From Gammaproteobacteria bacterium (GTDB lineage: Bacteria; Pseudomonadota; Gammaproteobacteria; Steroidobacterales; Woeseiaceae), in the NCBI GenBank assembly GCA_030425905.1, contig JAUHZT010000008.1:1-45290 (forward strand): a stretch of DNA of 45,290 bases. The letters are read 5' to 3'. The position numbers and the translations under genes were made by a program. Shown piece after piece: positions 5,387-24,098 of the stretch; the stretch's first letter is position 1, and each line of letters begins with the position of its first letter. The notes below the pieces were generated by a model. That model worked only from the letters and a program-made list of their open reading frames with translations, searched no databases and had not been told where the DNA came from.

Positions 5387-5944
5387 CTAGCGTCTGCGCA
5401 ATTTCCGACGACCGATAACGATCAGCAATAGACCACCACCCAGTAACACCAGCGTACCCGGCTCTGGAACGCTGACGTGTCCGTCACCGTTATCGTCGGG
5501 TTTCGGGTTGTCATGATCATCAATGCAGAAAATATCGCCCAGGTGGCTTAGCAGCGCATGCACTAACGAACCGAGGTCAGCGCCATTGCCGCCGAACCAG
5601 TCGCCAAGTTTCTTGCCGTTGTCGTTTTTCTGCTGGCCAGGGCCAAAGTCAAACAGTGAAGCGAGCCCGGCCAGGCCATTCGCATGCCCGCCCGACTTCG
5701 TGCCAACCTCCAGGAATTTGGCAAACAGGTCGTTCTTGTCGATCTGGCCCGACTGCCCGCCTTTACCAGACCACGCGTCCAGCCAGTTGCCATTCTTGTT
5801 CGAATGCTTGTCGCCCGTTGCGCAGGCTCCGCGTGCTGCGGCGCCATTTTCGTCGCAATCAATCCGGTCCGCATTCGCGGGGCCGGCAAGCGCAAGTGAT
5901 AATGCGACTATGGTTGAGAATTGGATCCAGTGTGTTTTTTTCAT
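5387..5944 (-). CDS. PEP-CTERM sorting-signal protein, small, Gly/Asn/Asp/Lys-rich
   Basis: Signal peptide; C-term VPEPGTLVLLGGGLLLIVIGRRKLRRR. Confidence 0.9.
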   Translation of the reverse strand: MKKTHWIQFSTIVALSLALAGPANADRIDCDENGAAARGACATGDKHSNKNGNWLDAWSGKGGQSGQIDKNDLFAKFLEVGTKSGGHANGLAGLASLFDFGPGQQKNDNGKKLGDWFGGNGADLGSLVHALLSHLGDIFCIDDHDNPKPDDNGDGHVSVPEPGTLVLLGGGLLLIVIGRRKLRRR

Positions 5945-5999: not shown

Positions 6000-6611
6000 C
6001 TAGATCTTTAGAGCTTTGCGCCGACGCATGCCAAGCAACAACAAGCCGCCACCTAGCAGGGCCAGTGTGCCGGGTTCGGGTACAGAGGTCGTACCGCCTT
6101 CTCCACGACCCCAAAGCCGGATGTTCGAGAAGCCGCCGCCTGTACCACTGATATAGTCATAAACCAGGTTGCCCATTGTCTCGCCGGGAGTGATCAGCCA
6201 TGCGAAATGGTCTGGTCCGCTCGTGTTGGCATTACCATGCCCAACATGAATAGTAATCACAGCCTCAGAGAACGTATTCCAGAATTCGGCCCCGATACCC
6301 CAATCGAGATCAAAGTCACCGCCGCCCCACATTCCGGAATTAAAAGAGACGGACAGAAAATCGTCAGCATCGTCGGCACTGCCAGAATTGCCTGCAATAT
6401 GCCCTGCATCGGACCATTCATCACCAGTCCAATAATCTTGCAGATCGTCGTCGTTCGGATTGCCGTTGCCCGTGTTGCAGGCCTCAGCCTCGGATAGAGT
6501 AGCGAGGATGTAGTCGTCGTCGCCACAGGTGATTTCGTCTGCGCCAGCCTGCGCCGCGAAGCCGAGCGTCAGAATCAAGCCGAATGCCGTTATTTTGTTT
6601 GTTGCTTTCAT
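6000..6611 (-). CDS. PEP-CTERM sorting-signal protein
   Basis: Start at MKATNKITAFGL (6611); C-term VPEPGTLALLGGGLLLLGMRRRKALKI; 55 bp upstream of the 5387-5944 gene, probable operon. Confidence 0.9.
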   Translation of the reverse strand: MKATNKITAFGLILTLGFAAQAGADEITCGDDDYILATLSEAEACNTGNGNPNDDDLQDYWTGDEWSDAGHIAGNSGSADDADDFLSVSFNSGMWGGGDFDLDWGIGAEFWNTFSEAVITIHVGHGNANTSGPDHFAWLITPGETMGNLVYDYISGTGGGFSNIRLWGRGEGGTTSVPEPGTLALLGGGLLLLGMRRRKALKI

Positions 6612-6668
6612 ATATTTATTTTCTCGCCCAAGCATGGGATCAAATTGAAGTTACTGCCAAGGTCTAAT

Positions 6669-6683
6669 GCAACAGCCATGCCA
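6669..6683 (-). promoter_or_regulatory. Sigma54 -24/-12 promoter for PEP-CTERM pair 6611->5387
   Basis: Minus strand TGGCAT-GGCTG-TTGC(AT). Confidence 0.75.
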
Positions 6684-6961: not shown

Positions 6962-7642
6962 ATGAAAGTGAACATCAAGTCAAAGTTAATCGCAGGCATT
7001 GTCGCCTCGACATTTATTTCCTTATCGGCACTGGCCGATCCGATCATCGTTGAAATTGAAGGCGGTGAGGCTCCCGATACACTCGGCGGTTTTACGCTGA
7101 CACCGTTCGACGAGCCGACAGCTACTGATTGTGCAACCTCAACGGCATCACCCCTGGGTGGCGAAGTTGAGTTCCAGAATCAAAGCAACGACCCGATGTG
7201 CATGAACGTTAAAGACCCGAACTGGTGGGAGTGGGATCACGGCAACGTATTCACCACCGGCGAGAACTGGATCGAACTGGTCCTGCCCGCGAACACCAAC
7301 GCATTCGTCTTCTGGGTTGGCGGCAACATGGGCGGCACCGGCTGGATCGAAGCTTACGACAACAACGACGGCTTTAGCGGTCGTGTTAACTTCGGCGGCA
7401 ACACGGATATCGATTTTGGTCCGGGCAATTCACCGGGCTTCGGTGTTTACTCGAGCAATTGCTCGGCTATTTCCCGCATCATTATTGAACCGTTCGACTG
7501 GGGCACCGGCCACTTCTCAACCAGCCAGGGTGAGTGCGCATCGGTTCCGGAACCGGCTCCCATTACCCTGCTGGGTCTTGGATTGCTGGGCCTCGCGGTA
7601 AGCCGTCGCCTGCAACGTAAAGCGGTAAAGGTTTCATCCTGA
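6962..7642 (+). CDS. PEP-CTERM sorting-signal protein
   Basis: Signal peptide; C-term VPEPAPITLLGLGLLGLAVSRRLQRK. Confidence 0.9.
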   Translation: MKVNIKSKLIAGIVASTFISLSALADPIIVEIEGGEAPDTLGGFTLTPFDEPTATDCATSTASPLGGEVEFQNQSNDPMCMNVKDPNWWEWDHGNVFTTGENWIELVLPANTNAFVFWVGGNMGGTGWIEAYDNNDGFSGRVNFGGNTDIDFGPGNSPGFGVYSSNCSAISRIIIEPFDWGTGHFSTSQGECASVPEPAPITLLGLGLLGLAVSRRLQRKAVKVSS

Positions 7643-7688: not shown

Positions 7689-7726
7689 AATAGCCGCACC
7701 TCGCAAGGGGCGCGGCTATTTTTTTA
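7689..7726 (+). terminator. Intrinsic terminator
   Basis: AATAGCCGC...GCGGCTATT followed by TTTTTATT. Confidence 0.85.
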
Positions 7727-10108
7727 TTCCTCCCGTATCCGCAGTCGGCTACCTGCTCGTACATCGTTTACCTGGCTTTGCGCACCGGACGGCCAGTCGA
7801 CGCTGACCCGGTCAACGCGGGAGCAAGCTCCCAGCCCAAAGCTCAGACGCTGCGGCCCCTGGCTGAGATAGCCGGACCCCGAGACGTGGGTACGCCGTTG
7901 CACCCGGTCACCGCATTGCACCTCGACGACCGCGCCCACCCCGTCACGATTGCTCCTCTGCCCTTCCAGCTCCAGCTCGAGAAACTGGCCGACACCCTCA
8001 AGCTCGTTCCAGTAGACAAGCAATTTCGGATCATTGCGGCTCGCGACAACCAGGTCTTGTCGACCGTCGCCATCGAAATCAGCCGCGACAACACTGCGGC
8101 TATCCAGCACGAGGTCGGTGCCCGTGGTTGCGGCAACATCCCGAAATACGCCATCTCCAAAGTTCTGGAACAAGCGGTTTCGTTCATAGCCGGCGAAGGA
8201 ATACGACTCCTGCTGCAGCAAATAGGAAAAGTAACCGGTCGCATAGGAGACAGGAGGCACCCCGGTACTGATAGGTGCCAGTAAGTGGCGCCAGAATACC
8301 GGGTCGGTGTCTTGCCGGCGCAAATTCGAGTACATGCCATTGGTAACGTAAATATCGAGATCCGCGTCGTTGTCGTAGTCGAATAAGACGCTACCCCAGG
8401 CCCACTTCGCATCGCTGATTGCAGGTGACTCAACTTCCTGAAAGCCGCGGCCCGTTGCCACGAGCAAGGTATTGCCTTTCGCGAACCGACGCAGCTTGTC
8501 GCGGGCCGCATCATCGTCTGGAAAGTCGTCGCTGGCTGCGAGCCTTTTGCCCGCATGACTTATCATGTTGGATACGTAAAGGTCTTCGTGGCCGTCGCCG
8601 TTGAGGTCCCCCAGACTTACCGCCATGCCGTTTCCGTAATCGCTGCCGCCGGCCGTTGCTGTAACCTCCTCAAACCTTGCATCGCCCATATTGCGGAACA
8701 ACTGATTGGGCCCATAGTCGTTGACCACGTACAGATCCTGGTCGCCATCGTCGTCATAGTCGAACGACAAAGCCGCAAAACTCCAGCGATCGTTGCCGTC
8801 ATCGAGACCAGCCTCGACGGTCGTCATTCGGAACTGTCCGCTGCCACTATTCAGGAACAACTGGTTCTTGAAACCGCGATGGCTGTTAAAGTAATCAAGC
8901 ACTGGACTGCTTGCGAGGTCGCCGTAGTTGGCAACATAAAAGTCCAGCAAGCCATCGTTGTTGTAATCAGCAACCGTTGCGCCCGTCAGGCCGGTTGTCG
9001 ACATGCGGTCAAAATGCGATGCCGATGACACGTCGTTAAACTTGCCATCGCGATACTCCAGCAGGTACAGGCGCCGCGCTGTCAGAAGAAGCGCATCCTG
9101 ATCGCCATCATTATCCCAGTCGAAGAAATAGCCACTGCGCGCCTCGCGAACATTCGCTATGCCAGTTATCTCGCTGACGTTCGTGAAGGTCCGGCCGCCG
9201 TCATTTCTGTAAAGCGTCGCCGGGCCGAATTTCACTGGCGCAAACACGTCGAGGTCGCCGTCACTGTCAAAATCAACGACGCTTACGCCCTCGGCAAAGT
9301 AATCAACATAGGCGGTCAGAGGAACATCCGGAACGGCGGCCGGCTCACTCAGCGTTTGCATTTTGAAAAGTGTCGGCGAACGCAGCGATTCCATGCTCTT
9401 GACGTCAATTTCCTGAATTCGCCAATGCGCGTCCCCGGCTTCTTTTATAACTTCGATGCTCATATGGCCCTGGTCTTCATAGCCGATCTTGCCCGCCTTG
9501 CTCGAAGCGTGCGTACCGGTGAGCCGAAAAGGCATCTCGAGGCGCAAGCGGCGTCCGTCATCGAGTGCCGTAATACTGTCGACAAACTGCTCGGTGCGAA
9601 TCACCTGTCCGTACTGCTGCAGGCATTTCTTCCAGGAGTCAACGAACGCATTTCGATCCAGCCGCGGTTCGTCGCTCAGCTGCCAGCGCGACCAGGTCAG
9701 GGACCCGGCTTCTTCGTTCAGGAGACTTGAGCTCTGCAACTCGGTGCCGCGAAAATTTTCGGCAAACAACGATTCCGTTTGGTCGGCGACAAACTCGCGG
9801 CCATGCAGAGCGCCAAAGAACAACGTGAGCATTGGTTCAAGCTCGCGCAATAGTATTTCGCTGGGCCACTGTAGCTGATCGACCTGCCCTGCCCTTGTGC
9901 GCCATTCAAGTTGTTTGTCGTTGGGGTAGCTACGGCGTGAGTTGGCCGCAAACGCATCGAACAGGGTTTCCACCGCCAGGGCATCACTATTGCCCGGCGG
10001 CTCGCTGTGGGCGGCTACAGGCGCTATCGCCGTCAGTACCGCCGTGCCTAGTGCCAGCCTTTTGCGCAAGCCTTCAGACACCGGACTTATGTAAGGTCGC
10101 AGTCGCAT
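7724..10108 (-). CDS. CRTAC1-like FG-GAP/VCBS repeat protein with C-terminal ASPIC/UnbV domain
   Basis: Repeated D-x-D-x-DGxxD FG-GAP motifs (DFDSDGDLDVF, DWDNDGDQDALL, DYNNDGLLDFY...) and GVGAVVEVQCGDRVQRR...DRVSVDWPSG. Confidence 0.9.
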   Translation of the reverse strand: MRLRPYISPVSEGLRKRLALGTAVLTAIAPVAAHSEPPGNSDALAVETLFDAFAANSRRSYPNDKQLEWRTRAGQVDQLQWPSEILLRELEPMLTLFFGALHGREFVADQTESLFAENFRGTELQSSSLLNEEAGSLTWSRWQLSDEPRLDRNAFVDSWKKCLQQYGQVIRTEQFVDSITALDDGRRLRLEMPFRLTGTHASSKAGKIGYEDQGHMSIEVIKEAGDAHWRIQEIDVKSMESLRSPTLFKMQTLSEPAAVPDVPLTAYVDYFAEGVSVVDFDSDGDLDVFAPVKFGPATLYRNDGGRTFTNVSEITGIANVREARSGYFFDWDNDGDQDALLLTARRLYLLEYRDGKFNDVSSASHFDRMSTTGLTGATVADYNNDGLLDFYVANYGDLASSPVLDYFNSHRGFKNQLFLNSGSGQFRMTTVEAGLDDGNDRWSFAALSFDYDDDGDQDLYVVNDYGPNQLFRNMGDARFEEVTATAGGSDYGNGMAVSLGDLNGDGHEDLYVSNMISHAGKRLAASDDFPDDDAARDKLRRFAKGNTLLVATGRGFQEVESPAISDAKWAWGSVLFDYDNDADLDIYVTNGMYSNLRRQDTDPVFWRHLLAPISTGVPPVSYATGYFSYLLQQESYSFAGYERNRLFQNFGDGVFRDVAATTGTDLVLDSRSVVAADFDGDGRQDLVVASRNDPKLLVYWNELEGVGQFLELELEGQRSNRDGVGAVVEVQCGDRVQRRTHVSGSGYLSQGPQRLSFGLGACSRVDRVSVDWPSGAQSQVNDVRAGSRLRIREE

Positions 10109-10151: not shown

Positions 10152-11504
10152 ATGTTAACCGATTGCGCCGTGCCCGATCCAAGACACGTGCTGCTGGCGT
10201 TGGCCCTGGCTATGTCGACGCAAGCGGCAGGAGCCGATCTGCGGCCTTTGCAGGATAACGACTACTACTACGCCGGGCAGCCGGATACCCGGCAGGTAGA
10301 ACTGGGACGTTTCCTGTTCTATGACAAGCTTCTGAGCGGCAATCGCAACATTTCCTGCGCTACCTGCCACCATCCGGCACATAACACGGGTGATGGATTG
10401 CAATTGTCATTGGGGGAAGGCGGTGCAGGCCTCGGTGACCAGCGCAGCGCGGGCTTGGGTACCAGTGCCGCGGTCATGCGCGTTGGTCGCAATGCGCAAC
10501 CTCTCTTTAACCTCGGCGCACGCCAATTCAGCGTGCTGTTTCACGATGGTCGCGTTGAACTCGACCCTGCCAACCAAGAACGCATGCTCACGCCGGTCGG
10601 TACAGGGCTCCCGAACGGCCTCGATAACCTGTTGGCCGCACAGGCGTTATTCCCTGTGCTGGCGATTGACGAAATGGCGGGGCATCGTGGCCGCAATGAC
10701 ATCGCCGATGCGGTCAATGTTGAAGACCCGTTCGCAGCCTGGCGCATCATTGAAGCGCGTATTCGCTCGATACCGGAGTATGTTGAACTCATGGTGGATG
10801 CCTACCCGCACATCAATACAGCGGAAGATATCGACATAGTGGCTGTCGCCAACGCAATCGCCGCCTTTACCACTGTCGAATGGCGCGCCGACAATAGCCG
10901 TTTCGATGCCTATCTGCGCGGCGACTCTGGAGCGTTGAATGCTGAAGAACGCCGCGGCATGACATTATTTTACGGCGCTGCGGGTTGCGCCGATTGTCAC
11001 GCCGGAGTCCTGCAGTCGGACATGCAGTTCCACGCCATTGCCATGCCGCAGATCGGTCCTGGCAAGGGCCACGGTTTCGATGGCCGCGAAGACTTCGGAC
11101 GGGAGAACGTCACGGGTAATCCGGCGGATCGCTACCGCTTCCGGACGCCCTCTCTACGCAACGTTGAGCACAGCGGACCCTGGGGCCATAGCGGCGCCTA
11201 CAATTCGCTCCGCGAGGTGGTGCAGCATCACCTGGACCCTGTCAGCTCTTTGCACAATTATGCCGTACCCGAGAATATCGCCCCTGCCCGGCCTGATCTG
11301 ATCGCCAAAGATTTTCTTGTGCAGAACAATCCTTTGCGCCGCGAGGCCATTGCCAGCAGGAACGAACTCGACAGCCAGTCACTTGACGAAGCCGATCTGG
11401 ATGCATTGCTGGCCTTTCTGCGCGCCCTGACAGACGAGGACAGCCTGGCGACGGCCGGCGGGGTGCCAGCGCGAGTGCCGAGCGGTCTGCCAGTAGAAGA
11501 CTAG
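10152..11504 (+). CDS. Di-heme cytochrome c peroxidase (CcpA/MauG family)
   Basis: Two CxxCH motifs (CATCHHPAHNTGDGL; CADCHAGV), LGRFLFYDKLLSGNRNISC and FRTPSLRNVEHSGPWGHSGAY. Confidence 0.93.
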   Translation: MLTDCAVPDPRHVLLALALAMSTQAAGADLRPLQDNDYYYAGQPDTRQVELGRFLFYDKLLSGNRNISCATCHHPAHNTGDGLQLSLGEGGAGLGDQRSAGLGTSAAVMRVGRNAQPLFNLGARQFSVLFHDGRVELDPANQERMLTPVGTGLPNGLDNLLAAQALFPVLAIDEMAGHRGRNDIADAVNVEDPFAAWRIIEARIRSIPEYVELMVDAYPHINTAEDIDIVAVANAIAAFTTVEWRADNSRFDAYLRGDSGALNAEERRGMTLFYGAAGCADCHAGVLQSDMQFHAIAMPQIGPGKGHGFDGREDFGRENVTGNPADRYRFRTPSLRNVEHSGPWGHSGAYNSLREVVQHHLDPVSSLHNYAVPENIAPARPDLIAKDFLVQNNPLRREAIASRNELDSQSLDEADLDALLAFLRALTDEDSLATAGGVPARVPSGLPVED

Positions 11505-11548: not shown

Positions 11549-13687
11549 CTATGGCGTCCAAAGCAATGTGAGTACCAGGTTCCGTCCCGGTTCATTCACA
11601 CCGGAACCATGAATTCGGTAGTCCTCATCAAAGACATTTTCAACGGCGGCGGACAGCGAGAGAGCCTCGCTTACCTGCCAGCCACTGCGCAATCCGAATA
11701 CGGCAAACGCAGGCGTACCGCCCGGCGGAATTCGATCGGTGTCACCTGCGTCACGCGTCGACAGCCGGTCTTGCTTGTCTGACCAGGCAACCCGCGCCTC
11801 CACCCACCAGCGCGCAGTCTCAGGATTCCAGCGCAAACCCGCGAGCGCGGTTAGCGGCATCAAGCGGTCAATGGGTTCACGCACGCGTTCAGGAGAGGAT
11901 GTCGGATACGTATCGACCTCGCCGTCCATCCACGTGAGATTACCGAAAACCGACCACTCTGCACTAATCAGGTAGCGTGTCTGAAACTCGGCGCCGCGTA
12001 CAAAGCCATCGCCGGAATTTCGTTTGGTAATTTCAACCAAACCACCCACATCACGGCCGGTCGGTGTGCGAATAACCATGTCCTTGATGTCCGTATAGTA
12101 CGCCGCAATCTGGGTGCTCCAGCGGTCGCCATCGTGTTTGAGACCAAACTCGTAGGTCAGAAATTCTTCAGACTCAAGGCTGGATACCGGGATCTCGAAC
12201 TCGTTGCTGCGCGCCGTATCAAAGCGCGTCAGGTCGGAGAGATTGGGCGCCCGGAATCCTTGCGAGACACCGCCAAACAAAGTGCTTTGCCCCGCCGTGT
12301 CCAGGCGGTGGTTGAATCGCGCACTCAGCGTTGTCGCACTCCAGTCGTCCTTGATCTGTATCGGCAACCCTGTATCCGGGTCCTGGACGACCCTTGCATC
12401 GGCCTCAGTCTCTGTAAATCGCAGGCCCAGCGTAACGTCAGTTCGCGCACCGAACTCGAATTGGTCCTGCACAAACGCTGCCGCCGTCAGGTATGTCGCA
12501 TCGTCGGCGACCGGCCCCTGGATACTGATGCTGCGCAACGAGCCATCAGCATTGTAGTCTCGCCGGTAGGAATCGACATCGTCGTGATAAAACTCGGCCC
12601 CCATCGTCAAAGCGCCCACGCGACTGGGTACCGTCATTTGGGCGAACAATCCGGTGGTTCCGATGCTGGTTCCCTGTATGTCCGTCCTCAAATTGGCGCG
12701 GAGACGATTACGTTCCTCACTCTGGTCGTGGTAGGAAAGACTGACGATCAGTTCTTCCATCCAGCCCGTCAGGTCTGTTGCGTGGTATTGCAGGTAGCTG
12801 AGCGTGCGGTCCTGCGACAGCGAACGGCGTAACTCGTCGCCCGTCGTTGTCCCTTCCCACGAGGTGCCAAATACAGTCTTGTGCACGCGCCAGGCATCGT
12901 CCTGATTCACACTCTGTACCGCCAAACGTAGTTGCTGATTCTCGCTAATATCAAAGTGCAGCTTGAATTCGTAATCGCGTTCATCGTAGCCGGTCATCGG
13001 TTGTGTACCAAGTTCCTTACCGCCTTCCAGGTCGCCAAAGTCTTTCACTGACACCGCCGCCATGACATCGAAGCGATCGCCGGCATAACCGACTTCCGGG
13101 CGCAGGACCCACGAGTTTTCGGCCGATGCTGCACGCGCGTACATACGCCAGTGCATCCCCTCGTTCCAGCGGCCATCGCGGTAGCTACGGCTGATCGCAT
13201 TCACAGTACCGCCAATAGCGTCGCTGCCGTACAGGACAGAGGTTGGCCCTTTGACCAACTCTAGCCGGTGTGCACTTAGAGCATCGACTGTATTCCAGTA
13301 TTGATTCGGACCTTCACGAAACGTGGAATTATTGAGCCGAATGCCATCGATGAGAAACAGTGTACGCAGGCCAGTGAAGCCGCGAATGAATGGCGAACCC
13401 TGACCGTGTGCTGTCTTTTGGATCATTACGCCCGGCAAATCACGCAGCGCATCGGGTACCGTTCTGACCTGCCGCTCTACCTGTAACTCCTGCATATCAC
13501 GCACGTTAATCATGTACGGCTGGCTTAAGGCGTTCTCGGCACGGCGTGATGCCGTCACAACAATTTCTTCAATATCGTAGCTTGCTGCGTTTGCATGGGC
13601 TGCAGACACAACAAACCCGCACAAGCCATTAACAGCAAGCGCTCCCACGACACTCGTGCATCGCGCCAATCTCAGTTTGTTTTTCAT
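11549..13687 (-). CDS. TonB-dependent outer-membrane receptor
   Basis: TonB box/plug (IEEIVVTASRRAENALSQ, GVMIQKTAHGQGSPFIRGFTG, LVKGPTSVLYGSDAIGGTVN), C-terminal beta-barrel ending LVLTLLWTP. Confidence 0.93.
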   Translation of the reverse strand: MKNKLRLARCTSVVGALAVNGLCGFVVSAAHANAASYDIEEIVVTASRRAENALSQPYMINVRDMQELQVERQVRTVPDALRDLPGVMIQKTAHGQGSPFIRGFTGLRTLFLIDGIRLNNSTFREGPNQYWNTVDALSAHRLELVKGPTSVLYGSDAIGGTVNAISRSYRDGRWNEGMHWRMYARAASAENSWVLRPEVGYAGDRFDVMAAVSVKDFGDLEGGKELGTQPMTGYDERDYEFKLHFDISENQQLRLAVQSVNQDDAWRVHKTVFGTSWEGTTTGDELRRSLSQDRTLSYLQYHATDLTGWMEELIVSLSYHDQSEERNRLRANLRTDIQGTSIGTTGLFAQMTVPSRVGALTMGAEFYHDDVDSYRRDYNADGSLRSISIQGPVADDATYLTAAAFVQDQFEFGARTDVTLGLRFTETEADARVVQDPDTGLPIQIKDDWSATTLSARFNHRLDTAGQSTLFGGVSQGFRAPNLSDLTRFDTARSNEFEIPVSSLESEEFLTYEFGLKHDGDRWSTQIAAYYTDIKDMVIRTPTGRDVGGLVEITKRNSGDGFVRGAEFQTRYLISAEWSVFGNLTWMDGEVDTYPTSSPERVREPIDRLMPLTALAGLRWNPETARWWVEARVAWSDKQDRLSTRDAGDTDRIPPGGTPAFAVFGLRSGWQVSEALSLSAAVENVFDEDYRIHGSGVNEPGRNLVLTLLWTP

Positions 13688-13689
13688 TA

Positions 13690-14430
13690 TTATTCTCTGG
13701 GTTCTATTGGTTTGCTGGCTTCCCCACGTTTGTCTTGCTGGTTTAAAGAAACACTGACTGTCACCGTGGCCCCTACAGGCGGCAGCAGCACCCCGTTTCC
13801 GGTGATCGAGCCGTACTTGCCGACGCCGATCCCCGAATGATGATCAATGATGGCGAACGGGTCGTGCACGAAGCTGATCACAGAACCGATCGTCTCCGCC
13901 ATGAATTGTCCGTTCGCTTCTGTAACCGACCCGGTATACACCCACTCGTCGCTCGTAATGGGCTTGCGGTCGAACATCAATGCCTCGCTGGCCGTGATCG
14001 ACACTGAGCGGAATTCATCTGACCAGTCGATACGTATATCGACGGCAGGCCCCTCGGCCGGGCGCTCATCGAACTGGTAGCGAGGCTTGACGCTGCGCGC
14101 GTCATCAAGACCAATCAGGATACTCGCCAGCTGGAACTGGGTTGCGGTGGCGTCAAGCTCCAGCAAGCTCTCGTACTCTTTCGCGCCACCTCTTGCGACC
14201 GCAAAATATTCAAGTGGGTCGGTTGTATGTGCAACGCGCGCCGGCAGCGAGAATCGCCGCGCCGCTTTGTCGACAATGACGTTTCCAATCCTGAACTTCT
14301 CATTACCCAGTTTTTCAATACCGAGTTCTGCGTTGGGCGGCGGCTGTACCTTGGGCGATTCTGCCATCGCCGGCTGCACGCCTGCCAGCCACGACAACAA
14401 GAGGGTAGCCGCGAACACCTTGCCACTCAT
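13690..14430 (-). CDS. YdjY-domain periplasmic protein
   Basis: Signal peptide; FRIGNVIVDKAARRFSLPARV...DPLEYFAVARGGAKEYESLLELDATATQFQLASILIGL resembles the YdjY domain. Confidence 0.65.
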   Translation of the reverse strand: MSGKVFAATLLLSWLAGVQPAMAESPKVQPPPNAELGIEKLGNEKFRIGNVIVDKAARRFSLPARVAHTTDPLEYFAVARGGAKEYESLLELDATATQFQLASILIGLDDARSVKPRYQFDERPAEGPAVDIRIDWSDEFRSVSITASEALMFDRKPITSDEWVYTGSVTEANGQFMAETIGSVISFVHDPFAIIDHHSGIGVGKYGSITGNGVLLPPVGATVTVSVSLNQQDKRGEASKPIEPRE

Positions 14431-15452
14431 GGTTTAATACCTGTCACGACGCGATGCGGCATTGGCGGCGGAAACGCACAGGTCGTTACATCCTCCAAAC
14501 CACTTGCCTCCATCCACGCGCTGACGTCGGCATCCGCATGTACGCAACCGTCGTCGGCGGTGAGCATCATCGTAATGCCAAACAAGGCCGAGAACTCAGG
14601 CGTCGTGCCATCGGCGTCGGCGAAAACATCGTTGACAATCACTATCCCACCCGGCTCCAGGCAGTTTGTGGCTTTTTCGATAAGTCGCTGACAATTTTCC
14701 GCGCTTTCGCGGTGGAACATGCCCGACATCAACACGGCGTCATAGCCTGAACCAAACTCAGTCTCGTGATAGTTGCCACGAATCATGGAAACGCGATCAT
14801 CAGCAGCCGTAGCCTTGAGTATCTCTTCGGCCACATCCGCGACGCCCGGTAGCTCCAGCACTTCGGCCTGCAAACCTCCGTAGCGCGCTGTCAGCATCGC
14901 TGAAAACGTGCCGGGCCCGCCACCTACGTCGAGCAACTTCTTGCGTCCACTCAGGTCGACGACGTCCGGCAACGCGCGTCCGATCGCCATCGCCCGGTCG
15001 TGCATGCTGTAGACAAAATGCCGCGTCTGTTCCTTGTTGTTGCCAAGGTAGGTGGTTGCCGCCTTCGCTGGTTGCCCACTGCGCAGCGCCTGCTCCAGGT
15101 CACCCCAGGTTGCATAAATGTCGTCCATGAAACTCATGGAGTTTTGCATGGAAGCGGGACTGTTCGTTGTCAGGAAGACTTCGCTGACGCGCGCATTTGA
15201 GAAAAGCCCGTCACTCTTTTCGCACAGGCCGAGCCCGACACAGGCGTTCAGAAAAAGACCTGTCATGCGTGGGTCAAGTGACATCTTTTCGGCGATGTCG
15301 GATGCCCTCAGTGGCCCGCTGGAAAGCACATCGAACAAGCCCAGCCTGTTGGCCGTTAAGAGTGTCTGCGAGCCCCAGTACGCCGTACTCAGGGAGATCA
15401 GCTTGCTGGGGTCTATCGGCGGCAACGACATACTTGCTGGTTTACTGGCCAT
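14427..15452 (-). CDS. SAM-dependent methyltransferase, acetylserotonin O-methyltransferase-like with N-terminal dimerisation domain
   Basis: LLDVGGGPGTFSAML and N-terminal winged-helix/dimerisation segment (LGLFDVLSSGPLRASDIAEKMSLDPRMTGLFLNACVGLGL). Confidence 0.88.
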   Translation of the reverse strand: MASKPASMSLPPIDPSKLISLSTAYWGSQTLLTANRLGLFDVLSSGPLRASDIAEKMSLDPRMTGLFLNACVGLGLCEKSDGLFSNARVSEVFLTTNSPASMQNSMSFMDDIYATWGDLEQALRSGQPAKAATTYLGNNKEQTRHFVYSMHDRAMAIGRALPDVVDLSGRKKLLDVGGGPGTFSAMLTARYGGLQAEVLELPGVADVAEEILKATAADDRVSMIRGNYHETEFGSGYDAVLMSGMFHRESAENCQRLIEKATNCLEPGGIVIVNDVFADADGTTPEFSALFGITMMLTADDGCVHADADVSAWMEASGLEDVTTCAFPPPMPHRVVTGIKP

Positions 15453-16698
15453 TGCTTACCTGCCCTTCGGTCTGCCGATCCATATCGCACTCAAGCTGCA
15501 TGTAGGCGCAGCGGTTGCACATAAAGCCGTCCCAGACACTGAGTTCGTGCTGGCGCCGGATATCGCGGTAGCTAAGCGCGAGATGTTCAAAATAGCTGCG
15601 TAGCCGACTTTGGTAATCTGATCGGTCTTTGCCACCCGTGGGGTAATACAAGGAATAAATGGGGATGATTCCACGTGAGCATAAATCCTGCACGCCTTGC
15701 ACAGCCAGATCGGCGGCCTCCTCCCATTCCATGTCGTACTCCGGCTCCAGTTCGATGCCCGCAACCATTGCAGAGTAGACCCGCCCGCGGCCCCAGAGCT
15801 CAACCGCTCTTTCCAGGGATTTAATCCAGCGATCATAGCCCACGTAGTTGTTCTTGCCGGGGCAAACGCGCGCAAACAATGCCTCGGACCACACCTCCAG
15901 ATTGAAGCAAACAGCATCCACAAGTTGCTCATCATAGAACTGCTGCAGGATTTCATCGGGGAGTGCGCCGGAGCCGAGCGTGACGCTGATCTTACCGGGG
16001 TTGTTCGCCTGTACCGCGCGTGCGAGTTGCAGGAAGCGCTGACCTTCCTGTTCGTAGTCGGTCAGAGAGCCACCCACAAGATAGATATGATTGATCTCGG
16101 TTTCGCCGGTGACCGCATCCATCGCCTCGTGCATGCGCTTTATCGTCAATTCAGGTATCGCTACTTGTCCCGCGACCTGCCCGAGGTGTGCCGTGCGCTT
16201 GTCCGGCGCCCCGTAAGAGCAAAACGTGCAGCGCATCGACTTGCCGTCGACCTTGTTCAGGAAGTACTCACAGCCCGGTGCAACATTGATGACCATCATG
16301 TCGCCATGCGTGCTTACGCCAGCCTGCGCAATAGGAAAGCCATCGCTCGTCTGTTGTTGCAACCAGTCGTGCAGTGGTTCAAAACGGATCGCGACCGGAT
16401 CATCGCGCCGCTCATCATGCACCAGCTTGTAACCCTCTTGCCGGTTGCCAACTACCGACCAGGGAGAGTCACCGTTGCCAAGTACACGAATCAGTGTATC
16501 GTCCTCGGTGTTGATCAGGTAAGGAATGCTGGCCTTGCCGGTTCCGGTAGGATCGTGTTCTCCTGCCTTGAATCGGTAAGGAAAATAGTTGGGGAGCGAA
16601 TGTTCCGCTGCGGCACCAAGCGCATCACTATAGCGAATACCCTCAAACATGACGGTAGTCTTTAATGCCGGCGAGCCGGCTAGTTTTGCCATTGGCAT
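15442..16698 (-). CDS. Radical SAM protein with atypical Cx13CxxC motif
   Basis: GCEYFLNKVDGKSMRCTFCSYG; downstream YLVGGSLTD, NLEVWSEALFARVCPGKN, VAGIELEPEYD typical of radical SAM TIM barrel; C-terminal MCNRCAYMQLEC. Confidence 0.82.
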   Translation of the reverse strand: MPMAKLAGSPALKTTVMFEGIRYSDALGAAAEHSLPNYFPYRFKAGEHDPTGTGKASIPYLINTEDDTLIRVLGNGDSPWSVVGNRQEGYKLVHDERRDDPVAIRFEPLHDWLQQQTSDGFPIAQAGVSTHGDMMVINVAPGCEYFLNKVDGKSMRCTFCSYGAPDKRTAHLGQVAGQVAIPELTIKRMHEAMDAVTGETEINHIYLVGGSLTDYEQEGQRFLQLARAVQANNPGKISVTLGSGALPDEILQQFYDEQLVDAVCFNLEVWSEALFARVCPGKNNYVGYDRWIKSLERAVELWGRGRVYSAMVAGIELEPEYDMEWEEAADLAVQGVQDLCSRGIIPIYSLYYPTGGKDRSDYQSRLRSYFEHLALSYRDIRRQHELSVWDGFMCNRCAYMQLECDMDRQTEGQVSNGQ

Positions 16699-16746
16699 TT
16701 TAGTCAGTCCCTGCTATTTATTATTTGTAATGGGACGAGGATCAGA

Positions 16747-17370
16747 ATGAACAAGACACTCTATCGACCTCTCGTCGCAATTATAATCGCTCTTGCTGTT
16801 CCTATCATTCCTTTTGCCATAATTGGTGAAATACCTGGCGAAAGGTGGTTGTCTGCAAATGACGATAATGCACTGTTGTTCGCACTCAGCGGTGCGAGCC
16901 TGTTAGCACTTGATATCGTCCTGCCGTTCCCGTCCAGCATCATCGGCACACTGCTCGGAGCGCGTCTTGGTCTTGGCCCCGGTCTCCTGACCGTTTGGTG
17001 TGGCCTGATGACGGGCCACATTGTGGGTTACTCGCTCGGCCGACTAAGCCTTGCGCGCCTGCACGCCGAGTTACCCGCACGCCCGACCTTGTTGCTCGTA
17101 TTCCTGAGTCGACCCGTGCCCATCCTGGCCGAAGCCATGGCGATTGCATCAGGCGCCACAGCCCTTTCTTTCTCGCACTACCTGCTGGCATGCACCCTTG
17201 GCAACGCCATCTATGCCGCCGTGCTCGTGGCAACCGGCGCTGCTTTGCTGCCCGGAGAGTGGTTCATGGTAGGTCTATTGCTTCCGATGTTGCTCCCTGT
17301 CCTGGCCTGGTTAGTCTGGCGCATGAGCCAACGGATGAGCACATCCACCGACGGGACTGACCGACACTAA
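16747..17370 (+). CDS. VTT-domain (TVP38/TMEM64/DedA-like) membrane protein
   Basis: FPSSIIGTLLGARLGLGPGLLTVWCGLMTGHIVGYSLGRL; multiple TM helices. Confidence 0.78.
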   Translation: MNKTLYRPLVAIIIALAVPIIPFAIIGEIPGERWLSANDDNALLFALSGASLLALDIVLPFPSSIIGTLLGARLGLGPGLLTVWCGLMTGHIVGYSLGRLSLARLHAELPARPTLLLVFLSRPVPILAEAMAIASGATALSFSHYLLACTLGNAIYAAVLVATGAALLPGEWFMVGLLLPMLLPVLAWLVWRMSQRMSTSTDGTDRH

Positions 17371-17373: not shown

Positions 17374-18081
17374 CTATTGCCCTGCTGCGCCTCGTGACAT
17401 CTCACCTGACGGGCTCAGATACAGAACGTCGACACCTGCGATGCTGCCACCAACCTCCAAGCGCACCGCTCTGCCTGCGTCCAGCTCGCGCTCCATTAGC
17501 TGCGCCGCTTGCCGAGGTCCCTCGACGACAGTGCGGTTAACCTTCGTAATATTCGTATAGGACTGCAGACCAACCGCCGCATTTACTGATTGTCCCACAG
17601 TCATTCTCTGCGCCACGCCCGACTCTGCATGTGCCGTTCCCGTAGCCTCGGGCGGGGGTACACCGCGAGGTCTTGAGCCCGTGATACTGGCGAGATTCTC
17701 TTTCACGTCTTCAAAATCCACAGTCAGGGTGGCATTGCCATCCGTTACTTGCATTTCGCCCGCCTTGATACTGGCCGAAACATCAGCGAGCAGCGTCGGC
17801 CTGCCTTGTAAAGGCAGAAAAATATCTTTACCGCCTTGCAAGAAGTGCAGATGGACGCCGTCGGGATTAATACTTGTTATCCGGTAGGTTTCGAGCAAAT
17901 CTCCCGGCCTGTACAGACCTTGCGTATCGTCAGACTTTTCGATGACCGCAAGCTGCTTGTCGCTCGTGTAGATTATGCCGGCGACTCGGTATCGCAAATT
18001 ACCGTCGAAGGCACTGGCTGAAACGCTGGCACAAGCCAGCAGCAAACAGACCAGAAATCTACCGCTCGATAATCTTGTCAT
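17374..18081 (-). CDS. Secreted protein with GspC homology-region-like domain
   Basis: Start MTRLSSGRF with RBS AAGGAAGG; signal peptide; AVIEKSDDTQGLYRPGDLLETYRITSINPDGVHLHFLQGGKDIFLPLQG resembles GspC HR domain. Confidence 0.55.
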   Translation of the reverse strand: MTRLSSGRFLVCLLLACASVSASAFDGNLRYRVAGIIYTSDKQLAVIEKSDDTQGLYRPGDLLETYRITSINPDGVHLHFLQGGKDIFLPLQGRPTLLADVSASIKAGEMQVTDGNATLTVDFEDVKENLASITGSRPRGVPPPEATGTAHAESGVAQRMTVGQSVNAAVGLQSYTNITKVNRTVVEGPRQAAQLMERELDAGRAVRLEVGGSIAGVDVLYLSPSGEMSRGAAGQ

Positions 18082-18143
18082 GTAAACCTTCCTTTTGGCG
18101 CAGTCTAACCAAGCCGCTGAATCGAGCACTGCCCGCATTGTGC

Positions 18144-18211: not shown

Positions 18212-21200
18212 TTACCGGCGTCGAACTCTGCCAGTAGGCGTTCCCTCAACGGTATCGCTGACACAGACTTCCCCACCCGCGGCGTTGACGCCGACAACGC
18301 GGTAGTAGTAGGTCACTCCGTTCGTCAGTCCATCATCAAGGTAGGTTGCGTACGTAGTCTGGTGATTAGCCGCGATAACCGAGAAGCCACTATCCGGTCC
18401 GTCGGTGCTACGCAAGATGTTGTAGCTAACGACGCCTTGTACCGGATCCCATACGAGCTGATTCTTTTTCTCCTTGGATCGTACAGATACTTCACTGCAT
18501 TCGACTTCTTCTGCACAGAATGCATCGTCCGCCGGCAGAACCTGCACGGTCGTAAAGTCAGAGTTCGATAGATCAGGTGACTCGGCTGCGGGGAACGCAG
18601 CGGCCGTATTGTCCGTTACGCGCAGGCCAAGTTCGTAGGTACCCAGTGCTGTGTACGTTGTAGAGGGCGACACCCCACTCAGGTCATCGAATACGAGATC
18701 ACCGTTCAAGTCCCAGTTATACGCCGTAATTGTATCGAACGGCGGTGAACCAGACTGGCTTAGCCCTTCGTCGACGTCAAAGGAGGCAGAACCGTCAAAC
18801 GTAATCGGCTCGTTGATGCAGGCAAGGTACGGTCCACCAGCATCTGCCGTTGGCGCATGCGGCGGCACGGTAATTTGCACAATTACCACGTCAGTATCGC
18901 TATTCGCCGGGCTGGCATTGTCGGTCACCCGCAAGACGACCGGATAACTGCCCAGGTCCGCAAATGAAACGGTCGCGTTAACACCCGTGACATCAAACGT
19001 GCCGTCGTTGTCGAGGTCCCACTCGTACTGCACGAGTGAGCGTGACGGGTCCTGGTGGAACGAGTCGCTGCCATCGAGCGTTATGTCCTGATTGATAGCG
19101 CCCGGGTTCGGAGCTGCAACGGCACGCGCAACCGGGCCGGCCTGGAACAGGGTCTGCGTAAGAATCTGGATACACCAGGGCGTATTGTGATCATCTTGAT
19201 TCGATCCGTGGCTGTTGCCTGGTCGATCGGTGCACCCGCCAATATTGGTACCGGAAGGAATGACGTAGTCCACAATGGTCCGCGCCAAACCGTCGGTTGG
19301 GTCGTTGTACCAGTCTAATGGTGCCGGGCCGCCCGCCGCACATCCGGGGTTCGGGCCGCAACCAACACCGCCGTCTGCTGCACCCACTTCGGTACCAATA
19401 ATAACTACGGGCTCAGGTTTGGCCGTGCGCACACCTTTAACAAAGTTGAACATGCCGTAATAGTAGTTCTTGAAATTGTTTCCGGTCGCCGGGTTATTCC
19501 AGTTGCGGCGGAACAAATTTTCGGCACGAATCCAGCGTTCGTCCGGCGTATCGGCCGTTGTGGCGTCAATGCCGTTCATCGACATCTGCACAAGCGCAGC
19601 ACCCGTCGTGCTGTAAGGACCCCACAAGGCACCTGTGCTCGTATAGCCGTGGATACCGTCAACGTCGCTGACGTCACTCTCATTATCCGAGAATTCAAGG
19701 CTCGTGATATTTCGATCCTTGACCCACTGCGGCACGGTCGCACCGAAGATATCTTCCGCCGCCGACAGGCCAATGCCGGCCCAGCCATTGGTGGAATTGT
19801 CGTTAGCACCGCTCGAGTTATTGAATGCGCTGTATTGCCAGCCACCATGAACAGCGTTGTCGGACTGAGCCATCGCATACCAGTCGACCATGTCCTGAAT
19901 AATGTCGCCATAGGTCTCACCAACAACGCTGGCGGGACCCGTCGTTGCAACGGCGTTTGGCGTGCCGGATGCGATGATTGCGTCCATGATCATGCCGCCC
20001 TGGTAGGGTGCATCACGAAAATTATCCAGGACGTAAATGCCGATCCCGTTGCCATTGGTATCAGGGTCGTCATCGCGTCCTGCAGGCACTGTCTGCGGAA
20101 CAAGGTCTTGCGTCGCGAGGTGCGAAATGACGTACCTCAGGCCGCGCGCCACGGTCTCTGTGTAGGGGCTGTCGGCCGGGCCATCCTCACGATAACCGTT
20201 TGCTTCGAAGGCGTTTACGCTGGCCGCGGACACGGTTGTTGCCGCCTGGCCGTTTGTTTGCGGGTAGTCCCAGCGCGACATCGGGATATCGCCGTTCGCT
20301 GCACCCAGCGCGGTTCCGTCGAACGGAAACTGATTACGGTGCATATGCCAGAGACCTTCGTCGACGGCTGTATTAACCTCAACCGGCAACGTTTCGGCAC
20401 GGCAAACCATCCGGTAAGTATCCGTTAACTCATCCACACCGTTGGTGACCGTTATTTGTGCATTGAAAACATCGTCGGGTGAACAGTTGTAGGTATGCTC
20501 GGTCCAGATTGCGTACGAAGGCGTATAGCCAGGATCATCAAGCTGGGCAGTTGATGATGGTAGTTCATCGACGTCGCCGTAGATCACAGCACTGCCGTCG
20601 CCCGGATTCCATTCCCAGCTGGCACCTGCGCAAAAATCATCGCTGCACGCCGCTTTCAGGGTTGTGGGCTTTCCGGAAATAATGTCATGCCGACGCAGCC
20701 GGTCAAAAGGATCAAGGGGAACCGCATTAACCTGCGTCGATGCGCCAAATTCGCAAGCATCGCCGACGTTGTCGCTATTGTCGTCTTCCTGACCCGCGTT
20801 CGCGATGAATGGACAGTTGTCCAGGTCATCGTCGACACCGTCGTTGTCATTGTCGAGGTCATCACAGTCAAGAATGCCATCATCGTCCCGATCGGGGCCT
20901 GCCACCAATTGCAACGGGCCGGCATAGCGCTGATAACCTGCCTGGCAAGCATACGTGTCGTTCGGGTCGCCGATCAGGTTAATCCGCTTGGTACCGCTCG
21001 CGCTTACGATCTCCAGTCCCAGGGAACCGATCAGCAAGTTTTGATTGCTTGGATCAAAATCCACGCTCAACGTGTTCCCGCAGCTCTGCGTGTCAATGTT
21101 TGCAAGCTCGGCCGCATTATCGAAAACGTGATCGATAATCGTGTTACCACAGGTGCAGCCCTGAGTTGATGGCACGTCGGGCGACAGCGTTTGACCGTCG

Positions 21201-21370
21201 ATTGTTACGGTCAGGCTGGTTGCACCCGCACCGCCGGCCGTGCAATCGGCATGTGCGCTTATCAGCCTGATGCTGCTTACGTCCTGTGCCGTTGCAGTAC
21301 CGGCACCCAAGCCAAGCATCAGGCCACCGAGTATTAGCAGCGTCGTTTTAAATGTGTGCGCTCTGTTCAT
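18212..21370 (-). CDS. Modular secreted protein: TSP type-3 Ca-binding repeats, terpenoid cyclase/prenyltransferase-like toroid, two PKD domains, C-terminal FN3
   Basis: DRDDDGILDCDDLDNDNDGVDDDLDNCP; GGWQYSAFNNSSGANDNSTNGWAGIGLSAAED; ARAVAAPNPGAINQDITLDGSDSFHQDPSRSLVQYEWDLDNDG (PKD); second PKD; YYYRVVGVNAAG (FN3). Confidence 0.8.
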   Translation of the reverse strand: MNRAHTFKTTLLILGGLMLGLGAGTATAQDVSSIRLISAHADCTAGGAGATSLTVTIDGQTLSPDVPSTQGCTCGNTIIDHVFDNAAELANIDTQSCGNTLSVDFDPSNQNLLIGSLGLEIVSASGTKRINLIGDPNDTYACQAGYQRYAGPLQLVAGPDRDDDGILDCDDLDNDNDGVDDDLDNCPFIANAGQEDDNSDNVGDACEFGASTQVNAVPLDPFDRLRRHDIISGKPTTLKAACSDDFCAGASWEWNPGDGSAVIYGDVDELPSSTAQLDDPGYTPSYAIWTEHTYNCSPDDVFNAQITVTNGVDELTDTYRMVCRAETLPVEVNTAVDEGLWHMHRNQFPFDGTALGAANGDIPMSRWDYPQTNGQAATTVSAASVNAFEANGYREDGPADSPYTETVARGLRYVISHLATQDLVPQTVPAGRDDDPDTNGNGIGIYVLDNFRDAPYQGGMIMDAIIASGTPNAVATTGPASVVGETYGDIIQDMVDWYAMAQSDNAVHGGWQYSAFNNSSGANDNSTNGWAGIGLSAAEDIFGATVPQWVKDRNITSLEFSDNESDVSDVDGIHGYTSTGALWGPYSTTGAALVQMSMNGIDATTADTPDERWIRAENLFRRNWNNPATGNNFKNYYYGMFNFVKGVRTAKPEPVVIIGTEVGAADGGVGCGPNPGCAAGGPAPLDWYNDPTDGLARTIVDYVIPSGTNIGGCTDRPGNSHGSNQDDHNTPWCIQILTQTLFQAGPVARAVAAPNPGAINQDITLDGSDSFHQDPSRSLVQYEWDLDNDGTFDVTGVNATVSFADLGSYPVVLRVTDNASPANSDTDVVIVQITVPPHAPTADAGGPYLACINEPITFDGSASFDVDEGLSQSGSPPFDTITAYNWDLNGDLVFDDLSGVSPSTTYTALGTYELGLRVTDNTAAAFPAAESPDLSNSDFTTVQVLPADDAFCAEEVECSEVSVRSKEKKNQLVWDPVQGVVSYNILRSTDGPDSGFSVIAANHQTTYATYLDDGLTNGVTYYYRVVGVNAAGGEVCVSDTVEGTPTGRVRRR

Positions 21371-21547: not shown

Positions 21548-22246
21548 CTAGCTCAAGCGCTGCCTGCGACGACGCGATGCAGCAAGTCCAAGCAGGCCCG
21601 CACCCAGCAGCAGTAACGTGCCGGGTTCCGGCACACCCGCTGGCTCATCACCGCGGATTTCGAGCGTGCTTGAAAAGTAGTAGCCATACTGGCTGTCAGG
21701 ATCAACATGGTTCAGCCAGAAGCCGCTGCCCGGCTGGTTCTCGGACAGGAAGAAGCTGATAACGGCCGTTTCGCCGTCTTCAAGCGAAAAATCCCAGCCG
21801 AGCCCCATTGACACGTCGTCTTCGAGGCCGCTCGGTACGCCGTTGGAATTGTCAAACGTGCTGTCGAAGAAATTGTCGACGATATCGCCGAAGAAGTAAC
21901 CCGGCTCATCAATCTCCCAACTCTGGCCACCGGCCGGCGCGCCACCGGAAACGCCAAACTCATTGAAATAAGTATTGGTATCTTCGTCGATCTCATAGTC
22001 GACAAACATTGAAACCAGGTAGTCACCGACACCGGTGAGCATAACAATAACACTGCCAAAGCCACTCGCAGCGATATTGTCATCAATATCGGGGGACGTT
22101 GGGTCTCCCTCCAGGCAACCTGCCTCGCCGACGCTGAACGTGTCGCCGTTGATGTTGACGCAGGTCTCGTATTGCCCGATCTCGTCTGCCTGAACCCCGG
22201 TAGCGAATGCCAGTGCGAGGATTGCCAGTAAGCTTCTTATTTTCAT
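21548..22246 (-). CDS. PEP-CTERM sorting-signal protein
   Basis: Signal peptide; C-term VPEPGTLLLLGAGLLGLAASRRRRQRLS. Confidence 0.92.
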   Translation of the reverse strand: MKIRSLLAILALAFATGVQADEIGQYETCVNINGDTFSVGEAGCLEGDPTSPDIDDNIAASGFGSVIVMLTGVGDYLVSMFVDYEIDEDTNTYFNEFGVSGGAPAGGQSWEIDEPGYFFGDIVDNFFDSTFDNSNGVPSGLEDDVSMGLGWDFSLEDGETAVISFFLSENQPGSGFWLNHVDPDSQYGYYFSSTLEIRGDEPAGVPEPGTLLLLGAGLLGLAASRRRRQRLS

Positions 22247-22380
22247 TATGTGCCACTCCTAGTATTCGTCGACCGCTTGCAATTCCCCATAGCGGCCCCG
22301 CTCCCGCGGGCGACTTCTTCCTTTTAAGGCAAGCCAATCTGCCCTTAAAGACTGTTTTTTTTGGTTCTGCTACCGGTAAA

Positions 22381-22395
22381 GCAAGATCCATGCCA
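22381..22395 (-). promoter_or_regulatory. Sigma54 -24/-12 promoter for PEP-CTERM gene 22246
   Basis: Minus strand TGGCAT-GGATC-TTGC(TTT). Confidence 0.75.
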
Positions 22396-22664: not shown

Positions 22665-24098
22665 GTGTCGAGGAATGCCGAAATCATGTACAAAAAACTG
22701 ACACGGCCGAGCAAACCCCTGGTAGAATGTATAATTTTTAGACAGACTAACAGCCTCTACCTGCGACTCTTTGTGCCACTGGCCGGCATTCTGCTGTTCG
22801 CCATGCTCAGCGCCTGGGCTATTTCCCTGCACTTCATGACCCGCGTCATGCAGGACAAACTGGATGCCCGGCTCGCCACCGCCACCGCCACCCTTAGCGA
22901 AGGCGCCTTCCCGCTCAGCTCAGACCTTATCGGCCGTCTTGGAGGCTTGCTCGATGCCGACGTTGTGTTGCTGTCGGCGGCCGGGACCGTGGGTGCATCC
23001 ACAGGCTCAGCCGAGCTCAACGAAGCGCTGTCGGGCGCAGCAATTGCGTTTCCTGGCGACGACAGTGCCCGACTGATTTTTCTGGATACCGCGGCGGGAC
23101 GCTGGCGCGCGGCGGTCCGCAAATTGCCCGCCGGACGCGATGACCGGTTTCAGTTTGTGAGCGCTGCGGCCTCGATGGAACCGACCAGTAGCGCGGTCCG
23201 CGAGGCGGCATTGTCACTGGCGGGCGCCATGCTTATCGCCGCACTCCTGTCCGCCGGGCTCGCCAGTATTTTCGTGCGTAGCATTACCCGCCCCGTCGAA
23301 GACCTTGCACAGATGGCCAATCGCATTTCTGACGGCCAGCGGGACGTCTCGGCCGCGATCAACGAACGCAATGAAATTGGCGTACTGGCCAGCGCTTTCA
23401 ACGACATGGCCGGTCGGCTCGCGGTCTTCGAACAGGACTTATCGGAGACGAGCCGGATGTCCGGCCTTGGGGATCTCGCGGCACGCATGGCGCATGAAAT
23501 TCGTAATCCGATGACAGCCATAAAAATGCAGCTGCAAATGCTCGAAGAGCGCATCGCCGGCCCGGACCAGAAACGCATCCGGACCGTGCTCGACGAATTC
23601 CGCCGTCTTGAGCTGATTGTTGACAGCTCGCTCACACTCGGCGGTGCCGCAACGGTCAACCCGGCACCAACCCGGATTGCAGCGACCATCAACGAAGTTG
23701 CGGAACTGCTCCGACCGTCACTTGCCCACCGCAACATCGAGCTGGAAACGCACATTGAAACGCTGCCCGTAGTGGCAATCGACGCAGACCGCATCAAGCA
23801 GGTGCTGCTCAACCTCGTCAACAATGCGGCCGATGAGCTCAGTGCAGGCGGGTGCATCTCAATTTCCGCCTCTGCCGGTGACGACGCGCACTTGCACATC
23901 AGTATCGCCGACTCGGGTCCCGGCTTGCAGGGTACAGAATCTGTGTCGAGCAAGCCGCTGGGACTGGGACTCGGCCTCAAGATCAGCCGGGAGATCGTCG
24001 AGCGCCACGGTGGCGAATTGCGGCACAATAGCAGCCACGAGCTCGGTGGTGCAGAATTCACGATTCGCCTGCCCCTGGCAAACGAGACCAACCGCTAA
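22665..24098 (+). CDS. Transmembrane sensor histidine kinase (HAMP, HisKA, HATPase)
   Basis: Two TM segments, HAMP SITRPVEDLAQMANRISDGQRDV, H-box LAARMAHEIRNPMTAIK, N-box NLVNNAADEL, GLGLGLKISREIVERHGG; ATG at 22686 is an alternative start. Confidence 0.92.
   Translation: MSRNAEIMYKKLTRPSKPLVECIIFRQTNSLYLRLFVPLAGILLFAMLSAWAISLHFMTRVMQDKLDARLATATATLSEGAFPLSSDLIGRLGGLLDADVVLLSAAGTVGASTGSAELNEALSGAAIAFPGDDSARLIFLDTAAGRWRAAVRKLPAGRDDRFQFVSAAASMEPTSSAVREAALSLAGAMLIAALLSAGLASIFVRSITRPVEDLAQMANRISDGQRDVSAAINERNEIGVLASAFNDMAGRLAVFEQDLSETSRMSGLGDLAARMAHEIRNPMTAIKMQLQMLEERIAGPDQKRIRTVLDEFRRLELIVDSSLTLGGAATVNPAPTRIAATINEVAELLRPSLAHRNIELETHIETLPVVAIDADRIKQVLLNLVNNAADELSAGGCISISASAGDDAHLHISIADSGPGLQGTESVSSKPLGLGLGLKISREIVERHGGELRHNSSHELGGAEFTIRLPLANETNR

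Follow-up and report, generated by a model that had tools for sequence, protein, structure and literature searches.

What system is encoded by a bacterial operon in which two S-adenosylmethionine (SAM) enzymes are co-transcribed with a YdjY-domain protein and an outer-membrane receptor? The question is raised by contig JAUHZT010000008.1 from a gammaproteobacterium of the Woeseiaceae, analysed here over 45,290 nucleotides (the window), in which genes for a radical SAM protein (rSAM), a methyltransferase (MT), YdjY and a TonB-dependent receptor are packed on the minus strand, divergent from a gene for a VTT membrane protein. The operon proves to be a single block within an island of about 20 genes that is rare and strongly conserved, and that may, as a tentative reading, load a cofactor or ligand onto cell-surface proteins.

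The operon and the island around it

The five genes at 11549-17370 are as follows:

11549-13687, minus strand: TonB-dependent receptor, above Pfam cut-offs; accessory, in gamma loci only
13690-14430, minus strand: YdjY-domain protein (NF040466), export predicted from a hydrophobic N-terminus
14427-15452, minus strand: class I SAM methyltransferase, Dimerisation and Methyltransf_2 domains, DVGGGPGT motif
15442-16698, minus strand: radical SAM protein (NF045502, variant_rSAM), C-x13-C-x2-C and C-terminal C-x2-C-x6-C
16747-17370, plus strand: VTT/DedA-type membrane protein, PF09335 just under cut-off; kept beside rSAM in 9 of 12 loci

The original prediction of a four-gene operon is exact to the base: rSAM and MT overlap by 11 nt and MT and YdjY by 4 nt, a gap of 2 nt separates YdjY from the receptor, and the divergent VTT start lies 48 nt from that of rSAM. 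The gene families were also read correctly, with a borderline match for VTT (31.7 bits to PF09335, cut-off 33.9). As a whole unit, however, that interval is too small because the conserved unit extends to about 36125, taking in a secreted toroid, MoxR-DUF58-BatA-VWA genes, a histidine kinase/NtrC pair and PEP-CTERM/dockerin genes that had been missed:

17374-18138, minus strand: secreted protein resembling GspC (type II secretion HR-domain-like); weak GspC/T2SSC matches, conserved in gamma loci
18212-21370, minus strand: large PKD/TSP3 protein, secreted, containing toroid-like repeats; it corresponds to the dockerin toroid in betas
21548-22246, minus strand: PEP-CTERM protein (PF07589, 30.6 bits)
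22665-24098, plus strand: sensor histidine kinase (HK)
24116-25528, plus strand: NtrC-family sigma-54-dependent response regulator
25883-26602, plus strand: mem239, membrane protein without family
26599-27687, plus strand: secreted squalene-cyclase-like toroid (PF13243), very highly conserved, in all 11 rSAM genomes
27695-28990, plus strand: unk431, conserved protein, no family match
28978-29493, plus strand: unk171, conserved small protein, no family match
29145-30542, plus strand: unk465, conserved protein, no family match; start probably nearer 29490
30481-31533, plus strand: MoxR AAA+ ATPase (PF07726, E 5.6e-57), Walker motifs in 10/10
31533-32399, plus strand: DUF58 protein, vWA-like, DxSxS
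32360-33943, plus strand: BatA-type membrane protein (PF07584)
33936-36125, plus strand: VWA-domain protein (PF13519)

Clustering and hidden Markov model (HMM) placement of neighbouring open reading frames (ORFs) defined five recurrent blocks. Block A holds DUF3303, VTT, rSAM, MT and YdjY; block B runs from mem239 and the secreted toroid through unk431, unk171, unk465, MoxR and DUF58 to BatA and VWA; block C is the HK and NtrC regulator of the gamma genomes; block D combines a PEP-CTERM or cohesin-like protein, a dockerin or PKD toroid and the GspC-like protein; and block E comprises ebo genes, at times with isopentenyl diphosphate isomerase (Idi). The window carries the rSAM operon and block D leftward and blocks C and B rightward (22665-36125). 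In the betas, rSAM-MT-YdjY-mem239-toroid-unk431-unk171-unk465-MoxR-DUF58-BatA-VWA form a single 12-gene operon, with VTT/DUF3303 divergent.

Distribution and co-inheritance

Genome searches covered Pseudomonadota, and counts are based on 12 loci in 11 beta- and gammaproteobacterial genomes (G1407 and G1297 were taken as the same as L001 and L002 and counted once). Most genomes are metagenome-assembled (MAGs), that of the window being 88.8% complete, and gene starts in GC-rich loci are approximate. A contig scan with rSAM yielded seven further loci, all of which keep the rSAM-MT-YdjY neighbours and five the divergent VTT. Over the 12 loci the constant core is rSAM-MT-YdjY, usually with VTT and DUF3303; the three genes are adjacent in every related locus uncut by a contig end save in genome G1288, where YdjY stands in another block of the same system. 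The proposal that the two SAM enzymes, YdjY and VTT constitute a conserved, undescribed system is thus borne out: they travel together, orthologue neighbourhoods are conserved, rSAM matches no housekeeping family, and no described counterpart of the island was found. Literature searches for MoxR with DUF58 and squalene, and for MoxR with vWA and MxaR, returned nothing. Similar toroid-MoxR and YdjY genes probably occur in Planctomycetota.

Carriers of rSAM are rare, amounting to 6/396 genomes in the window's order, 1/369 in a class sample and 2/401 in the beta family of Ideonella. The toroid (alignment A2) is present in 11/11 rSAM genomes, and within the window's order rSAM (396 genomes searched) and the toroid (296 searched) occur in an identical set of six genomes, the other 290 being without the toroid; it is not stated whether all 296 belong to the 396, though the listed genomes agree. 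Blocks A-D are all present in G430, G1302 and G1288, split over two contigs, and their co-occurrence across contigs indicates a link that is more than proximity. For rSAM, MT and YdjY, protein distances taken pair by pair correlate with the corresponding distances for MoxR, DUF58, BatA and VWA (r 0.78-0.93). One Rubrivivax MAG (G428, loci L036 and L037) has two rSAM-MT-YdjY-toroid islands on two contigs, from either a real duplication or a mixed bin.

These patterns bear on the simplest alternative, unrelated operons co-travelling on a mobile genomic island with no shared function, which the sporadic spread of rSAM would fit; it is very improbable and largely refuted already, as the blocks still co-occur when apart in the genome, two of them are one operon in the betas, and a shared sigma-54 signal is conserved.

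The TonB receptor, which of the four operon genes is conserved least, adjoins YdjY in just 3/12 loci, all gamma, and is missing from all beta loci, and it is therefore rejected as a core part. Of the proposed small molecule with its own uptake receptor, the first half is favoured, and the second is no core feature.

The core proteins

The rSAM protein scores 158.6 bits against NF045502 (cut-off 125) and 27.4 bits against Pfam Radical_SAM, under the 29.5 cut-off. Its cluster motif does not follow the canonical CX3CX2C spacing; all 12 homologues instead share an intact CX13CX2C (CX14CX2C in G430), together with a C-terminal CX2CX6C. It is highly conserved among the island loci (58-83% identity). 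Plasmids yielded distant MSMEG_0568-type proteins alone (20-26% identity), and assignment to that family was rejected (TIGR04043, 41.9 bits vs a cut-off of 303.7). No significant relative was found in the PDB, and a structure model of moderate confidence (pLDDT 70) retrieved generic rSAM barrels in Foldseek (LipA, SuiB, MiaB), none specific. A ribosomally synthesized and post-translationally modified peptide or rSAM-SPASM system was likewise rejected: there is no SPASM/RRE family match, and the small precursor peptide ORF suggested earlier has no conserved candidate in the intergenic gaps of the window. For MT, the closest solved relative is 7wdq (DsyB/DSYB; E 1.6e-36). By sequence it may resemble that S-methyltransferase, but the match is distant and shared with many O-methyltransferases (RedM, SibL, ASMT), and no dimethylsulfoniopropionate genes were seen near the island MT.

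The window YdjY scores 104.2 bits against NF040466 (cut-off 50). The window's genome was the only positive among 399 genomes of the phylum; it has one copy, and in six further first-searched genomes YdjY lies at or beside the rSAM locus, with two copies in G428, which has two islands. The contig of G039 stops just past rSAM and YdjY was not found elsewhere in that genome, while in G426 a 462-residue protein downstream of the core has a second, weak YdjY-like domain (L033:4086-4445; 39.5 bits, under the cut-off). YdjY has no significant PDB relative, and its structure model is weak (pLDDT 55). Literature on YdjY with radical SAM was not found, and on YdjY alone there were incidental mentions only.

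The association of YdjY with VTT proteins known from E. coli ydjXYZ recurs in the island loci. In E. coli, YdjY is flanked by two VTT/DedA proteins, with an ABC importer next in line (ydjXYZ-ynjABCD), and beta island loci similarly combine YdjY, VTT and an ABC importer; the E. coli locus, in contrast, is without rSAM, MT, toroid and MoxR. An HMM of the VTT family matches YdjZ at 2.4e-9 (among seven proteins), and the window YdjY resembles its E. coli namesake through the family model only. In G429 an importer of iron/thiamine/phosphonate type (binding protein, double permease, ATPase; L039:9718-13328) lies between VWA and ebo. YnjBCD was rejected as its counterpart, the ATPase alone matching, which is uninformative.

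A possible sigma-54 switch for the surface proteins

The window contains 16 near-consensus sigma-54 sites vs 4.7 expected, a count reached by 0/100 shuffles. Two stand before island operons:

22380-22395, minus strand: sigma-54-like promoter site ahead of the PEP-CTERM/PKD genes
25654-25669, plus strand: sigma-54-like promoter site ahead of the toroid-MoxR operon, conserved in six genomes

The site before block B has counterparts in five more genomes where an HK/NtrC pair lies alongside (six gammas with the window), sites precede PEP-CTERM or dockerin genes in seven loci, and sites precede a second TonB receptor in two. The combination of an HK, an NtrC-type regulator, PEP-CTERM proteins and sigma-54 sites resembles the PrsK/PrsR regulons of PEP-CTERM/exosortase systems, from which it differs in that the island regulator falls under the TIGR02915 cut-off (360.7 vs 502.6 bits).

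The second receptor of the window adjoins a ferritin-like gene at 38359-38823, and its sigma-54-like site is perfect:

36113-38050, minus strand: second TonB-dependent receptor, with a sigma-54-like site at 38104-38119, minus strand

Perfect or near-perfect sites also lie at 6867 (plus) and 6668-6683 (minus), near an NtrC-type regulator at 2598-3986 (minus), in a region with three more PEP-CTERM proteins at 5387-5944 (minus), 6000-6635 (minus) and 6962-7642 (plus). Between these and the rSAM operon lies a gene for a MauG-like di-haem peroxidase (10152-11504; TIGR03981 score 289.5 bits, under the cut-off of 340), which diverges from an ASPIC/UnbV FG-GAP gene (7724-10108), the pair being shared by the closest relative, G425, only. 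Neither was accepted as part of the island, the MauG-like gene being present only in these two genomes and the ASPIC/UnbV gene in three loci. In G430 the island is bordered at its ebo/Idi end by type II secretion genes (GspD, GspG and other pseudopilins; L081:7699-12148), which agrees with the presence of a GspC-like protein in the island.

A link to ebo metabolite traffic

EboE is found in 6/11 island genomes (G943, G428, G429, G430, G427 and G1288) and is linked to the island in five. The ebo genes sit on a contig with part of the island in G943, G428, G429 and G430 and on another contig in G427. In G1288 (L054:470-8372), Idi, EboA, EboB and EboF come immediately after rSAM-MT, with EboC, EboE and EboD convergent. 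There, rSAM-MT and a complete ebo cluster stand together without YdjY or VTT, and a separate contig holds YdjY along with the toroid block. EboA-F are present and linked in the beta loci, G430 and G1288, as in the known ebo/edb clusters, and Idi adjoins ebo in G1288 and G430. All four rSAM-positive betas have EboE, vs 0/39 other genomes of the beta family. The ebo cluster is required to move scytonemin precursors into the periplasm (PMC6282210), its product has been proposed as an isoprenoid-cyclitol (PMC5133447), and a relative of EboC farnesylates 8-hydroxyquinoline-2-carboxylic acid (8-HQA) in vitro (PMC9235831); the wording 'radical SAM' or 'methyltransferase' was not found in these papers. 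Metabolite-traffic genes in 6/11 genomes favour a small molecule.

Proposed loading of a ligand onto surface toroids

If ebo and rSAM-MT indicate a small molecule and the toroid has the same distribution as rSAM, ligand loading becomes the most economical reading, and it is the one favoured here, tentatively. In the cytoplasm, rSAM and MT would synthesize or modify a small molecule. Its passage across the inner membrane might use the ebo pathway, in genomes that have it, or VTT, and exported YdjY would receive it in the periplasm. MoxR and membrane-bound DUF58, BatA and VWA would then drive insertion of the ligand into the secreted toroid or toroids, or their maturation. Toroid, dockerin/PKD and PEP-CTERM/cohesin proteins would be shown at the cell surface under the HK/NtrC/sigma-54 switch, and TonB receptors in the gammas, or the ABC importer in the betas, could retrieve substrate or ligand. 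What the sequences establish is gene content, conservation, co-occurrence, intact motifs and promoter sites, whereas each chemical and transport step of this scheme is an inference.

The model for such loading is mxaRSACKL, in which a MoxR ATPase, DUF58 and BatA/vWA membrane proteins form an operon serving periplasmic methanol dehydrogenase. The ligand of that enzyme, pyrroloquinoline quinone (PQQ), is made with the involvement of a radical SAM enzyme, PqqE. The island may be comparable in that MoxR-DUF58-BatA-VWA accompany both a secreted client and radical SAM chemistry, and MoxR with intact Walker motifs, DUF58, and BatA/VWA with a MIDAS-like DxSxS do occur in one operon, as in the mxa type. 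No PQQ dehydrogenase, in contrast, adjoins the MoxR/vWA set, the toroid standing in that place; the client is a terpene-cyclase-like toroid rather than a PQQ beta-propeller, no pqqA/D-like gene was seen in the island, rSAM falls in NF045502 and not in the PqqE model, and the island has surface PEP-CTERM/dockerin partners.

Several observations weigh against this reading. The putative loading role of MoxR/vWA is drawn by likeness to mxa; the toroid lacks any conserved Cys or catalytic motif that would point to a bound ligand; and no substrate or product of the island was identified. VTT distances do not track those of other island proteins, and the rSAM operon has no sigma-54 site within 450 bp in 11/12 loci, G1288 being the exception with a distant site. 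Searches for EboE found none in five island-bearing gamma genomes (the window's, G039, G425, G426 and G1302), a departure from the ebo/edb pattern, and the export step or the molecules must therefore differ there.

Alternative explanations

Closest to the view first taken of the operon is a metallophore or diffusible natural product: rSAM, MT and, where present, ebo would produce a chelator or protective compound for secretion, to be recovered by TonB receptors and the ABC importer, with the toroid and surface proteins serving as a storage or capture layer. The two TonB receptors of the window island, one with a perfect sigma-54 site, the ferritin-like gene, the anion/iron-type ABC importer between VWA and ebo in betas and the farnesylation of the quinoline 8-HQA by an EboC homologue (PMC9235831) all suit this account. 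It is nonetheless doubtful, since the receptors are not core and are absent from the beta loci, the conserved genes include no peptide-synthetase or siderophore synthase, and it explains neither the MoxR-vWA machine nor why the toroid is so extremely conserved.

Direct protein modification, with rSAM and perhaps MT acting on the toroid or a surface protein and MoxR/DUF58/BatA/VWA as unfoldase or chaperone, would account for the strict co-occurrence of rSAM and toroid; the CX2CX6C of all rSAMs could hold an auxiliary cluster, and the window and its closest relative have a MauG-like di-haem enzyme as a neighbour. The reading is unlikely: rSAM and MT are cytoplasmic and the toroid bears an export signal, SPASM/RRE matches and a precursor peptide in the window gaps are lacking, the position of rSAM-MT beside ebo and Idi in G1288 is a small-molecule context, and MauG is not core.

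VTT proteins are lipid scramblases, and in an isoprenoid or lipid pathway rSAM and MT would act on a terpenoid lipid, such as a prenylated cyclitol, produced with Idi/EboC, VTT would flip it, and the toroid would bind or process it in the envelope. Idi adjoining ebo, the kinship of the toroid to terpene cyclases and the proposed isoprenoid-cyclitol (PMC5133447) point this way, yet the pathway is quite unlikely, as EboE was not found in five gamma genomes and the toroid was rejected as a squalene-hopene or class II terpene cyclase: the acid motif DxDD is not conserved, with PD[LM]SN at the likely place. Against full-length equivalog models of terpene cyclases the toroid scores 31-37 bits (cut-offs >320).

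Implications

In the island, YdjY, the ebo product and the kind of client served by most MoxR-DUF58-BatA-vWA operons come together in a single co-inherited unit, along with two SAM enzymes and a definite group of secreted proteins. Thanks to G943, a closed genome, and Ideonella sp. A 288 (L003), a strain record, the unit can be tested. The boldest form of the loading hypothesis, rather doubtful at present, is a new class of envelope cofactor, made by rSAM/MT, exported by ebo and inserted by MoxR-vWA into a toroid of terpene-cyclase fold that is displayed via dockerin-cohesin/PEP-CTERM contacts. If true, it would explain at one stroke what YdjY, the ebo product and the toroid-MoxR module do. 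Should the toroid carry a ligand, a new cofactor could become identifiable, and MoxR/vWA and ebo could gain a substrate.

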